A stretch of DNA of 25,329 bases, taken from IMG/VR virus record IMGVR_UViG_3300042474_000108, positions 1-25,329 of that record. One strand, given 5' to 3'. This document shows positions 5,906 to 11,002 of this stretch, in pieces. The notes beneath the pieces were generated by a model. That model saw only the letters and a list, made by a program, of their open reading frames with translations, searched no databases and was not told where the DNA came from. A program made the position numbers and the translations under genes. Positions within the stretch are counted from its first letter, which is position 1; the number at the start of each line of letters is the position of its first letter. This DNA comes from a virus.

Positions 5906-6817
5906 TTATAAAAAATTTAGTTGGCTTTCTTTTATAGTCCTTAATATTGATTTTCCGTCTATACTAAATCCTACATTATTCTGCAAAGCTACAATTTCAA
6001 TCGGATTATCTATACTGGTAGGTCTGCCTCCGGTTTCTATCTCTTTTATCTTTCGTATATGCAGCATTGTAGTTGTGTATAATTGTGGATGCAAAGTTAA
6101 TCGGTGTACTACTATAAAGTCATCGGCTCTATTTACGAACTTTCCTCCTCCCTCTACGTCACTTGCCATTGGCGGTAATGGATGCCCAGCAAAAGGATGG
6201 TCTGCTCTGTAAACTTGTCTCAAGGCGTTTGTATTTGCGTGAGTATTTAACCAAAGACTTACTTTGTATTCTTTGCAGTACATTCTCATTTCTGTACACG
6301 CTTGGTAATCGTATTCGTGTCCTCCTAGATTTTTCATTAAATCGTTATCTTTGATGAGAGCATTATACGGGTCTAGTAATATTCCGTTAAAATTAAAATC
6401 TTTTTTGACTTTTTTAAACATATCTATTGCAGAATGATAATCGTACATAGTAGCGTTATCCACGAATTTAAAATGTTTATTTATAAAATCGGTGTGAGTT
6501 TTAAAATTACTTTCTGAAACTAAATTTATCGGAGTTTCGTCTAGGAATTCAACTAACTTTCTAATCAAAGAATAAGAATCATTCTCGGTGCTGCAAACTA
6601 GCCATTTTAAATCGTGCTTTAAAGAGTAACAAAGCATCAAATAAAGAATGCTAGTTGTTTTACCTACGTTTGCGTGACCTAACACTATATTAAAGTTACT
6701 AGGTTTAAATCGAATATACTCATCTATTTGAGGTATGTCTAATTTTAATCCCTCTTTGAGTTTACCGGACCTAATCTGGCGAAGTATATCGAGTTGTTTG
6801 TTATAATCTATTAGCAT
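5906..6817 (-). CDS. RecA/DnaB-fold ATPase, probable replicative helicase
   Basis: 303 aa. Walker A GHANVGKT at residues 47-54 follows a short N-terminal helix; a Walker B-like strand GILLDPYNALI lies mid-protein; LWLNTHANTNAL and GGGKFVNRADDFIVVHRL fit the sensor/H4 and DNA-binding loop area of DnaB-type ATPases. The DnaB N-terminal domain is missing, so it is a minimal helicase core, as in several Bacteroidota phages. KaiC/RecA-like ATPases are an alternative. The neighbours (SSB-like, ERF, exonuclease) support replication. Its start lies 1 nt after the leader AACCAAAACA, complementary to the candidate small RNA near 9600, and a GC-rich hairpin sits 20 nt upstream, so its expression may be controlled separately. 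Confidence 0.85.
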   Translation of the reverse strand: MLIDYNKQLDILRQIRSGKLKEGLKLDIPQIDEYIRFKPSNFNIVLGHANVGKTTSILYLMLCYSLKHDLKWLVCSTENDSYSLIRKLVEFLDETPINLVSESNFKTHTDFINKHFKFVDNATMYDYHSAIDMFKKVKKDFNFNGILLDPYNALIKDNDLMKNLGGHEYDYQACTEMRMYCKEYKVSLWLNTHANTNALRQVYRADHPFAGHPLPPMASDVEGGGKFVNRADDFIVVHRLTLHPQLYTTTMLHIRKIKEIETGGRPTSIDNPIEIVALQNNVGFSIDGKSILRTIKESQLNFL

Positions 6818-6818
6818 C

Positions 6819-6832
6819 TGTTTTGGTTTAAA
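6819..6832 (-). promoter_or_regulatory. Leader site TTTAAACCAAAACA before the helicase start
   Basis: The mRNA-sense sequence TTTAAACCAAAACA ends 1 nt before the helicase ATG (6817). The identical 14-mer lies on the opposite strand at 9590-9603, inside the candidate small RNA, so 14 contiguous base pairs are possible over the initiation region. Shorter versions occur before the genes starting at 8769 and 8877. Confidence 0.5.
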
Positions 6833-6836
6833 TAAT

Positions 6837-6858
6837 GGCCGGACTATTACATCCGGCC
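6837..6858 (-). terminator. GC-rich hairpin between SSB-like and helicase genes
   Basis: GGCCGGA (6837-6843) and TCCGGCC (6852-6858) form a perfect 7-bp stem with an 8-nt loop, a strikingly GC-rich element in this AT-rich genome. On the minus strand it is followed by ATTATTTAAA, a poor U-run, so it may be an attenuator, an RNA-stability element or a processing site rather than a strong terminator. Confidence 0.5.
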
Positions 6859-8535: not shown

Positions 8536-8769
8536 TTATTTGCTTAATGCTACTCTACAACCGTTTTTAATTAACTCAACCCAGTCTGGATTGTCTGAAT
8601 ATAAATACTCATAAACTTTGAATCCATTTGTTATTAAGTATGCCTCTACTTCGTGAGTGTGATTACCGATTAATGTAACTCCAGAGTTACCTACATTTAC
8701 GCTAAAAAAATGATTCAAATCAATTCCTAGTCCGATTAAATTTCCTAATTGTTCGCTAATTGTTTTCAT
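8536..8769 (-). CDS. Hypothetical protein, 77 aa
   Basis: MKTISEQLGNLIGLGIDLNH ... VTLIGNHTHEVEAYLITNGF ... NPDWVELIKNGCRVALSK. It is not recognised beyond being a typical small soluble phage protein. Its leader holds two tandem copies of AACCAAAACA directly before the ATG, the sequence complementary to the candidate small RNA near 9600. Confidence 0.7.
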   Translation of the reverse strand: MKTISEQLGNLIGLGIDLNHFFSVNVGNSGVTLIGNHTHEVEAYLITNGFKVYEYLYSDNPDWVELIKNGCRVALSK

Positions 8770-8771
8770 AA

Positions 8772-8793
8772 TGTTTTGGTTTGTTTTGGTTTA
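8772..8793 (-). promoter_or_regulatory. Tandem AACCAAAACA leader sites before the 77-aa gene
   Basis: Two adjacent copies (8791-8782 and 8781-8772) of minus-strand AACCAAAACA end 2 nt before the ATG at 8769. The segment TAAACCAAAACAAA (8793-8780) can form 14 contiguous base pairs with the candidate small RNA. The upstream copy overlaps the stop codon of the 28-aa gene. Confidence 0.45.
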
Positions 8794-8877
8794 GTAAAAA
8801 AATCTAGTTAAAAAATATACTGCAATAATTCCTATTGCGTAAACTTGGTACTTTTGTTTGCTTAAAAATGTTTTCAT
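8791..8877 (-). CDS. Tiny membrane peptide, 28 aa
   Basis: ATG at 8877-8875, stop TAA at 8793-8791: MKTFLSKQKYQVYAIGIIAV YFLTRFFY in two parts. A basic N-terminus precedes one hydrophobic helix. The strong A-rich leader (AATTAAACCAAAACAATATG) matches that of neighbouring genes and supports translation. The function is unknown; membrane-targeted early peptide is a guess. Confidence 0.55.
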   Translation of the reverse strand: MKTFLSKQKYQVYAIGIIAVYFLTRFFY

Positions 8878-8878
8878 A

Positions 8879-8892
8879 TTGTTTTGGTTTAA
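8879..8892 (-). promoter_or_regulatory. Leader site TTAAACCAAAACAA before the 28-aa gene
   Basis: This 14-mer on the minus strand ends 1 nt before the ATG at 8877 and is a perfect complement of part of the candidate small RNA (9591-9604). It is the third leader with this sequence. Confidence 0.45.
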
Positions 8893-8932
8893 TTATTAAT
8901 GCAGTTTATAGTATTCTGCTCCACTTTGTTTA

Positions 8933-9472
8933 TTAATTGTTGTTTTTTAAATAAGAAATCCAATTACTATTAGTAGAAAATGTTTCATTTTCAAAATCAA
9001 AATCTCTTTCAATTTTTTGTATTTCCTCAATGTTATCATAAATAACAAAACCTTTATCAGTAATTTTTACAAAAGAACATTTATAATCAATATCTATTAC
9101 CTTAACCTCAAAACCTTTTTTATCAAAAGTAGTTTTCTTTTTAGCAATACTTACAAATGTATTATCTACAAGAACAAAGAATAAACCAAATTTACCAGAA
9201 CATAATTTATCACTTACCATAACTCCATCTTTAAACAAACAAATAGTTTTTTCGCTTCTAACTAAAAAACCACCATTTAATTCTTGCTCAATTAACAGAT
9301 CGTATTTTCTATTGATTTTTGAAATAGTTTGTGAAGTAACTTGGTCAGATATACCACCTAAAATAGTATCGTCTTGACAATCAAAATATCTACGCATTCT
9401 ATCATCTTGAATTTCATAATAAGGTGCTAATGCTTGTTTTCTGTTTTCTTCTAATTGTTGAATAGTTGTCAT
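8933..9472 (-). CDS. Hypothetical protein, 179 aa
   Basis: No family recognised. The N-terminal third is helical (MTTIQQLEENRKQALAPYYE, then RRYFDCQDDTILGG) and the rest alternates short beta-like stretches (KFGLFFVLVDNTFVSIAKKK, FEVKVIDIDYKCSFVKITDK). No membrane segment is present. It is preceded by the terminator/small-RNA unit and a TAATTTTG element at 9511-9504, so it begins its own transcription unit or is expressed by read-through of the terminator. Confidence 0.7.
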   Translation of the reverse strand: MTTIQQLEENRKQALAPYYEIQDDRMRRYFDCQDDTILGGISDQVTSQTISKINRKYDLLIEQELNGGFLVRSEKTICLFKDGVMVSDKLCSGKFGLFFVLVDNTFVSIAKKKTTFDKKGFEVKVIDIDYKCSFVKITDKGFVIYDNIEEIQKIERDFDFENETFSTNSNWISYLKNNN

Positions 9473-9554: not shown

Positions 9555-9592
9555 AAAAAAAAATCCCAACCTTAAAAAAGACTGGGATTTTT
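9555..9592 (-). terminator. Strong intrinsic terminator (minus strand)
   Basis: AAAAATCCCA (9559-9568) pairs perfectly with TGGGATTTTT (9583-9592) across a 14-nt loop. Read on the minus strand, the stem is followed by a run of nine U (9563-9555). On the plus strand the U-run is five, so it could work in both directions. It ends the candidate small RNA that starts near 9626. Confidence 0.8.
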
Positions 9593-9626
9593 AAACCAAA
9601 ACAAAGTAATAATTATGAAACAATTA
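9555..9626 (-). ncRNA. Candidate small regulatory RNA, about 72 nt
   Basis: A perfect promoter (9663-9633) and a strong terminator (9592-9555) enclose about 35 nt of non-coding leader: the RNA would start near 9626, pass through two CATAATT repeats, then UUUGUUUUGGUUUAAA (9605-9590), then the terminator. The middle stretch is complementary over 14 contiguous nt to the start-codon leaders of the genes beginning at 6817, 8769 and 8877, and over 9 nt to that of 4043, so an antisense role on translation initiation is plausible. The alternative is that this is the attenuated leader of the 179-aa gene. It is not recognised as a known RNA family; expression is inferred. Confidence 0.55.
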
Positions 9627-9632
9627 TGAGTT

Positions 9633-9663
9633 CAAATATAGTGTTTTATTTTAACTTGACAAA
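9633..9663 (-). promoter_or_regulatory. Bacteroidota-type promoter of the candidate small RNA
   Basis: On the minus strand, TTTG at 9663-9660, exactly 19 nt, then TATATTTG at 9640-9633. It is identical in both elements and spacing to the promoter at 4099-4069. It overlaps the last codons of ninG, and no start codon with a sizeable reading frame follows before the terminator. Confidence 0.7.
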
Positions 9664-10197
9664 CTCTTTTATTAAAATATCGTACTTTAATTTCTTTGCG
9701 ATTAGTTCCTCTTTTGTAAACTTGTAGTTACGTGTGTTGTTTGCTTTCTCTTCTATCTGGTCCGTATATTCTATTCCGTATCTCTGAATAAGTCCGGCTC
9801 TGTAATTTAATTCGTTGCCTCCTAGAAATCTGTTACACTTTCTGCATTGTTTATGACAGTTACTTTCGTCAAATATAACTCCAGAGTATATCTCTGCTTT
9901 TTTAAAATGTCCTCCGTCCCAGAGTTCTGTGTTTTCAACTCCGCAACTTATGCAAGGTTGTCTCATATCTCGCAATCTTATATACTTTTGAAAGGACTTT
10001 TTTGCCTCTGCCTCGTATTGTCCTAAAGTTTTAAGTTTGTCTTTTAAAATCGATTTTTGCTCTTTCCATTCTCTTTGCTCTTTTTGTTGTTTAAGATTCT
10101 TTGAATGTTCAATCGCACACTTATATCCACAGACTGCTTGAGCAAACTGGACCGGAGTGAATTTAGTTTGACAAACTTTGCACTTTTTATCTTTCAT
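9646..10197 (-). CDS. ninG: NinG/Rap-like recombination nuclease
   Basis: 183 aa. The N-terminus holds a zinc-finger-like set C6-x2-C9 and C23-x3-C27 in KCKVCQTKF...AVCGYKCAIEH. A long basic helix follows (KNLKQQKEQREWKEQKSILK). The C-terminal half has the NinG core: FQKYIRLRDMRQPCISCG, DGGHFKKAEIYSGVIFDE, then NCHKQCRKCNRFLGGN, where the Cys and His residues form an HNH-like metal centre, and a final YRAGLIQRYGIEY. In lambda the homologue (Rap) acts on branched recombination intermediates. It lies downstream of the spanin-like gene; its 3' end contains the small-RNA promoter. Confidence 0.88.
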   Translation of the reverse strand: MKDKKCKVCQTKFTPVQFAQAVCGYKCAIEHSKNLKQQKEQREWKEQKSILKDKLKTLGQYEAEAKKSFQKYIRLRDMRQPCISCGVENTELWDGGHFKKAEIYSGVIFDESNCHKQCRKCNRFLGGNELNYRAGLIQRYGIEYTDQIEEKANNTRNYKFTKEELIAKKLKYDILIKEFVKLK

Positions 10198-10724: not shown

Positions 10725-10906
10725 ATATCGTATTGTTTAAGTTTCTCCAAATATAAGATAAAATCCATCGCCTCTTGTTGAGCGTGATTAATCCATTCTA
10801 AGCAAGTTAAATCCTCTCGGTCTAGTGTTGTATTGTATTTATTAATTCCAACCTCTGACCGCTCTTTAAATTGGTTTATTACTGATTCAACTATTGTGTC
10901 TTTCAT
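10721..10906 (-). CDS. Small phage protein, 61 aa, possibly MazG-like
   Basis: MKDTIVESVINQFKERSEVG ... KYNTTLDREDLTCLEWINHA, then QQEAMDFILYLEKLKQYDI. The pattern 'R...G..KYxTTLDReDL....W..HAQxExMDxxxYLEKL' is widespread in phages and loosely resembles the helical E-x-x-D core of MazG-type NTP pyrophosphohydrolases, but is too short for confident assignment. Its stop overlaps the spanin-like start by 4 bp. The start codon abuts an 18-bp tandem repeat. Confidence 0.75.
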   Translation of the reverse strand: MKDTIVESVINQFKERSEVGINKYNTTLDREDLTCLEWINHAQQEAMDFILYLEKLKQYDI

Positions 10907-10945
10907 AGTGTAAATTCAAAATCTAATATAGTGTAAATTCAAAAT
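10905..10945. repeat. Two exact 18-bp direct repeats, period 23 bp
   Basis: ATAGTGTAAATTCAAAAT occurs at 10905-10922 and 10928-10945. The first copy runs into the ATG of the 61-aa gene. On the minus strand the upstream copy completes a TAATTTTG (-7-like) element at 10947-10940. It could be an operator or a duplicated promoter/leader. Confidence 0.7.
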
Positions 10946-11002
10946 TAATTACTTTTTATTGCAATTAAAACCTTAAAATTTGAGGTCTATCTTTAAACGA
11001 TT

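Follow-up and report, generated by a model that had tools for sequence, protein, structure and literature searches.

A promoter-to-terminator unit found downstream of the NinG/Rap nuclease gene in a family of uncultivated phages probably encodes a small RNA of ∼75 nt that base pairs in trans with a leader shared by several phage genes and, as its pairing region suggests, would block their translation. The promoter box, the RNA and the terminator are conserved among relatives, the RNA is complementary to the gene leaders and covaries with them, and most of the RNAs display their pairing segment in a conserved hairpin. Because RNA and leaders changed together in evolution, the phage probably regulates a group of genes by RNA–RNA pairing; production of the RNA during infection, pairing in the cell and a block of translation initiation are what its sequence would predict. 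The window analyzed is the whole of IMG/VR virus record IMGVR_UViG_3300042474_000108 (25,329 bases), with nearly all sizeable ORFs on the minus strand. Its host is probably Flavobacterium, judging from the type of promoter and a distant resemblance to phages of that genus.

Anatomy of the Unit

The unit directly follows the NinG/Rap nuclease gene (9646–10197, minus strand; Pfam NinG, E = 3.5e-40), and all of its parts lie on the same strand. The promoter noticed in a previous sequence-only reading is present at 9633–9663, overlapping the end of the NinG gene, and consists of TTTG (9663–9660), 19 nt and TATATTTG (9640–9633); the string alone is not significant, since the window contains two TTTG-N19-TATATTTG sites vs. 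0.89 expected by chance. The predicted RNA (9557–9632, 76 nt over this interval) has its 5′ end near 9632–9628 and its 3′ end within the T-run at 9563–9555. As that reading had also stated, it lacks a meaningful reading frame: all three frames are interrupted or open for a few codons only, and ATG is absent. Two copies of a UCAUAAU segment (9612–9618 and 9623–9629), complementary to AUUAUGA around start codons, lie upstream of the recognition segment UUUGUUUUGGUUUAAA (9590–9605), which is the complement of the leaders and whose 12-nt core has a mean unpaired probability of 0.88 in the fold of the window RNA.

In the same fold (−16.8 kcal/mol) the 5′ half is largely free and is followed by a 15-bp stem running into the T-run, which agrees with the strong terminator earlier assigned to 9592–9555. 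This intrinsic terminator, AAAAATCCCAGTCTT-TTTT-AAGGTTGGGATTTTT plus T-run, gives the RNA a poly-U tail, and its structure is conserved in relatives though the sequence varies. A consensus terminator scanner run on the window did not list it, probably because the stem runs into the T-run. The unit therefore combines its own promoter and terminator, no notable ORF, and complementarity to more than one mRNA where translation starts, as trans-acting base-pairing small RNAs do.

Two other features of the window were noted. The 179-aa gene behind the unit (8933–9472, function unassigned) is 81–100% identical across contigs with differing surroundings, and given this identity despite a changed neighborhood it appears to move with its own promoter and leader. 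At 10907–10950, a TTTTGAATTTACACT stretch with a tandem copy lies directly before the 61-aa gene at 10906.

Predicted Target Leaders in the Window

Complements of the recognition segment precede three genes, all on the minus strand. The DnaB-like replicative helicase (5906–6817, 303 aa; PHROGs DNA primase/helicase and DnaB-like profiles, E to 3.5e-33) starts at 6817 and carries the site TTTAAACCAAAACA at 6819–6832, with 14 nt complementary to the RNA. The 77-aa gene (8536–8769, start 8769), which has no assigned function and no family match in PHROGs/Pfam profile searches, is preceded by two tandem sites, ACTAAACCAAAACA and AACCAAAACA (8772–8795), and the 28-aa gene (8791–8877, start 8877), likewise without assigned function, by ATTAAACCAAAACA (8880–8893). 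Exact TTTAAACCAAAACA occurs once before the helicase (6819–6832, minus strand) and once in the unit (9590–9603, plus strand), and copies with one and two mismatches precede the 28-aa and 77-aa genes; allowing up to two mismatches, the window contains eight matches vs. 1.28 expected.

Three leaders with at least 12 nt of complement to the RNA, the number claimed from sequence inspection, were equalled by 8 of 5000 shuffled RNAs, and the same level was reached by 31 of 5000 random antisense stretches. A fourth site proposed at the same time, 9 nt before 4043, is weak and indistinguishable from an ordinary A-rich leader. Judged on the window alone the match between RNA and leaders is suggestive; the relatives make it convincing.

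An inverted repeat, GGCCGGACTATTACATCCGGCC (6837–6858), lies immediately before the helicase leader. Several helicase leaders of relatives are likewise preceded by similar hairpins, and given this recurrence hairpin and leader may form a repeated module.

Conservation Among Relatives

NinG searches of IMG/VR yielded about 100 loci, and the unit was found 3′ of NinG in more than 20 contigs with NinG identities of 65–100%. A TAnnTTTG box occupies the promoter position in all 25 unit-bearing genomes studied in full, and the −33 TTTG is found mainly in the clade of the window. The unit lies ∼600 nt further downstream in L238, and in L310 and L314 other sequence precedes it instead. A pattern search independent of NinG found 16 promoter-bearing units in viral contigs; 12 of these had CACTAAA leaders in the locus examined, and three of the remaining four lay at contig ends. 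None of the 105 stretches that the search returned from bacterial genomes combined a unit with CACTAAA leaders.

In GTDB genomes the unit pattern gave background matches only, a NinG alignment search found no relative, and no prophage or host copy of the unit was found in the genomes searched. A blastn search of GenBank phages likewise returned no unit, and the elemo and Mumin-type Flavobacterium phages were used for synteny only. Because most contigs are fragments, a missing unit is not proof of absence. An exact 16-mer scan of viral contigs returned at least 120 stretches scattered across many contigs, which were not used as evidence. Rfam models gave no match at the unit in the window (a chance-level PhrS match lay elsewhere) or at the units of L211, L238, and L294, so that these units match no Rfam family, c4 and the other antisense RNAs among them. 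A described equivalent was not found in the literature searched, which yielded reviews and unrelated work only.

The position of the unit also bears on whether it is an attenuator or leader of the next downstream gene, as the sequence-only reading had considered for the 179-aa gene. In the window the unit does stand directly before that gene and closes with a terminator, but the gene has its own promoter and occurs without the unit in L002–L005, relatives have different genes behind the unit, and beyond the terminator lies another promoter-like box. We regard an attenuator as extremely improbable.

More distant relatives carry a different promoter and structured element after NinG (L238:1430–1560, L279:10565–10680, L031, L032, L260, and L268). 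It comprises TATATTTG, a GTAGAGTCGTCGCTAC hairpin, and then a terminator whose loop, GACGACGAC, complements GTCGTCG of the hairpin. Rfam models gave no match to it in L238 and L279, and it is possibly another phage RNA. The DUF805b RNA (RF02914) scored above its gathering threshold in two phage contigs (L230:4962–4994 and L279:12815–12847).

Covariation of RNA Class and Leaders

The recognition segment differs between relatives, and the RNAs sort into three main classes. Class GUUUUGGUU (GG; the window, G007, G008, and G011) is accompanied by leaders AACCAAAAC: ACCAAAAC occurs in 8 of 198 leaders of these four genomes and CACTAAAA in none. The 17 genomes of class UUUUAGUG show the reverse: 62 of 757 leaders contain CACTAAAA and not one contains ACCAAAAC, and CACTAAAA is found in 0 of 344 leaders of the other RNA classes. 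These class-level counts (p = 2e-12 and 5e-6) are not fully independent, since the genomes are related and leaders within one genome may be copies of each other. They are based on signature motifs, used in place of raw 8- to 10-mer counts of leaders against all RNAs, which showed block structure only and were too noisy (U-rich vs. A-rich). Whole-RNA duplex energies, compared with those of shuffled and swapped RNAs, placed the own RNA first in some genomes only and are also too noisy, because every RNA is U-rich and every leader A-rich.

The same switch is visible gene by gene. Among helicase orthologs, whose proteins are 72–100% identical, the leader changes with the RNA class in most genomes, reading tttaaaccaaaacag in the window, aaacactaaaacaa in G009, aaatcactaaaa in G017, ttttaatcactaaaaaca in G022, and aatcactaaactataa in G029, where the RNA is one U shorter; leaders of 77-aa-family orthologs likewise switch in most genomes. 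Within class UUUUAGUG the length of the U-run in the RNA is associated with that of the A-run in the leaders (chi-square p = 2e-5): RNAs with four U go with A4C leaders (26 of 46), those with five U with A5 or longer (13 of 22), and those with three U with A3C (6 of 14).

The third class, CUUUGUUUUUGUUUG (UUUG; G010 and G014–G016), is mixed. One leader of G010 is a perfect CAAACAAAAACAAA, the UUUG phages retain some ACCAAAAC leaders with one mismatch to their own RNA, and the first gene of G015/G016 has a CACTAAAA leader. Leader changes without a compensating change in the RNA, which the sequence-only reading had named as contrary evidence, were looked for in these comparisons. Changes were mostly compensated, both by class and by A-run length, and RNA and targets agree in most genomes; the expectation fails in part for the UUUG phages, which are only partly matched, and at the helicase leaders of G019, G028, and L211, which lack the motif. 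Two further phages have leaders without a visible unit: G032 (L291) has four CACTAAAA leaders and no unit in its 17-kb contig, and G033 (L292/L293) has three ACCAAAACAAATG (ACCAAAAC) leaders, with no unit seen in the DNA examined. Their RNA is either located elsewhere or diverged. In a NinG tree with moderate support, class UUUUAGUG lies outside and around the GG/UUUG clade and the UUUUAGUG phage G013 falls inside it, so at least two class switches are needed.

Under another alternative, the leader is just an A-rich context common at Flavobacterium start codons, with the copy on the opposite strand a relic, as the sequence-only reading had suggested, or a product of chance. A-rich leaders are indeed expected for Bacteroidota (PMC6847099), and the window-only match is just moderately unlikely, but RNA and leader classes covary and the motif is absent from nearly all leaders of NinG phages that lack the unit (CACTAAAA in 13 of 1640 leaders; n = 61 contigs). 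Nor is it enriched before ATG in four Flavobacterium genomes, where CACTAAAAC-N-ATG occurs less often than the backward control sequence (45 vs. 87) and AAACCAAAAC-N-ATG occurs 58 times vs. 66 in the control. A shared host context is contradicted by these results and is a most implausible account of the motif. On the relatives and the Flavobacterium controls, a chance relic, a general host context and an attenuator of the 179-aa gene were all rejected.

Site Placement, RNA Hairpin, and Possible Start-Codon Pairing

Leader sites lie on the coding strand and end mainly 8–12 nt, or 3–5 nt, before the AUG. The genes so marked include the helicase in 12 genomes, the 77-aa family in 10, a ∼71-aa family in eight, a ∼72-aa family in six, a 105-aa family in four, NinG in four, Erf in two, an exonuclease in one, and single small genes; the helicase, Erf, exonuclease, and NinG identities rest on homology. 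The NinG gene of the window is without a target leader.

RNAs of class UUUUAGUG form a hairpin just before the terminator with UUAGUG in its loop, closed by stems GGUU/AACC, CGUUU/AAACG, AAGUU/GACUU, UGGU/ACCA, or UGUUU/AAACA. Across 13 sequences, 88% of cells are paired and four of five pairs vary on both sides, giving a covariation score of 0.613 vs. at most 0.254 in slid controls and above all shuffles; a pattern requiring TTTAGTG had retrieved L314, one of these sequences, so in it the invariance of the loop is partly selected, while the stem is unaffected.

Most relatives' RNAs also have the 5′ UCAUAAU motif. Correspondingly, 42% of target genes start with ATTATG vs. 12% of others; restricted to genes whose intergenic gap is 20 nt or longer, the figures are 42% vs. 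18% (p = 0.0004). In the 77-aa gene of G008, stretches of 20 and 13 nt complementary to the RNA span the AUG.

These features bear on the alternative that a phage repressor or activator binds the motif as DNA, the unit copy being another operator and site and protein having changed together. Such a site would also covary between leaders and unit, and a TAnnTTTG box does lie within 90 nt upstream of 22 of the 79 leader sites. Most sites, however, have no promoter box nearby and keep their distance to the AUG, which together with their coding-strand placement speaks against an operator in the DNA. The orientation of the unit copy is in every case opposite to that of the leader copies, and in 389 kb of UUUUAGUG phages the leader motif before ATG occurs 36 times forward vs. 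twice in reverse. An operator would not need the compensatory changes in the stem around UUAGUG, and the start-codon context, too, fits an RNA. We therefore consider an operator improbable.

Proposed Mechanism and Relation to Known Systems

The trans-acting antisense RNA tuning early genes, as originally proposed, is supported by the covariation in relatives; its expression and its repressive effect are deduced from sequence. The recognition segment (UUUGUUUUGGUUUAAA in the window) would pair with the leader motif within ∼13 nt before the AUG of several genes, including the helicase; in most relatives UUUUAGUG, displayed in the hairpin loop before the terminator, would do the pairing, and UCAUAAU could extend it over the start codon. 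Flavobacterium ribosomes do not use Shine-Dalgarno pairing and need unstructured A-rich leaders; in F. johnsoniae, A at −3, −6, −12, and −13 promotes initiation and structure hinders it (PMC6847099). With initiation of this kind, a duplex on the leader should block translation initiation and so repress the gene. The phage would likely use this to lower the expression of its replication and recombination genes in concert, much as T4 uses the RegA protein, and the operon carrying the unit may itself be subject to feedback.

The RNA might instead activate its targets, for instance if pairing prevented structure from forming in the leaders or shielded the mRNA. Activation is compatible with all the sequence evidence, and there is precedent for a phage small RNA whose target is a replication gene of the host (PreS of lambda, acting on dnaN; PMC12197685). 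Yet the pairing spans −1 to about −22, often with the AUG, the region needed by the 30S subunit, and structure there lowers initiation in F. johnsoniae (PMC6847099), so that activation is the unlikely direction and repression the one we favor.

The closest functional parallel, T4 RegA, represses ∼30 phage mRNAs through A+U-rich sites over or just before the AUG, translation sites of the same kind, and its gene too lies within the replication cluster (PMC3014915). RegA is a protein of loose specificity, whereas the agent of the unit would be an RNA whose specificity resides in complementary sequence and can switch by class. The c4 (P1/P7) and sar (P22) RNAs pair with phage ant mRNA around its translation start and so prevent its translation, and c4 underlies P1/P7 heteroimmunity (PMC12197685); each has one target, in contrast to several unlinked genes with one common leader here. 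OOP, aQ, 6S, and PreS are likewise short phage RNAs from their own promoters, and lambda too has NinG, but OOP and aQ are each antisense to one gene and PreS acts on host dnaN with Hfq (PMC12197685).

A single seed that may act on many mRNAs is a likeness between the unit RNA and the multi-target small RNAs of bacteria. In those RNAs one seed serves many mRNAs and is looped or single-stranded before the terminator. In contrast to them, the unit RNA has all of its identified targets within a single small phage genome, where its seed evolves together with them. To our knowledge, most base-pairing RNAs described in phages come from phages of enterobacteria and have one or a few targets each, and we know of little on how phages time translation in hosts without Shine-Dalgarno pairing.

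A more speculative extension, which we think doubtful, makes the RNA the central regulator of the replication program, doing as an RNA what RegA does as a protein, and takes the specificity classes (GGUU, UUGUUUG, and UUUUAGUG with three, four, or five U) to be immunity groups. If so, when two phages of the same class infect one cell, the RNA from one would shut off the helicase of the other, and immunity would be the force behind the repeated, coordinated changes of RNA and leaders.

Several replication genes thus appear to be under the control of a single phage small RNA that recognizes a leader they have in common, in hosts whose ribosomes initiate without Shine-Dalgarno pairing. Since the RNA and its leaders evolve together within small genomes, these phages provide a natural series of matched and mismatched RNA–target pairs in which the rules of seed pairing, the switching of specificity, and a possible immunity among relatives can be studied.
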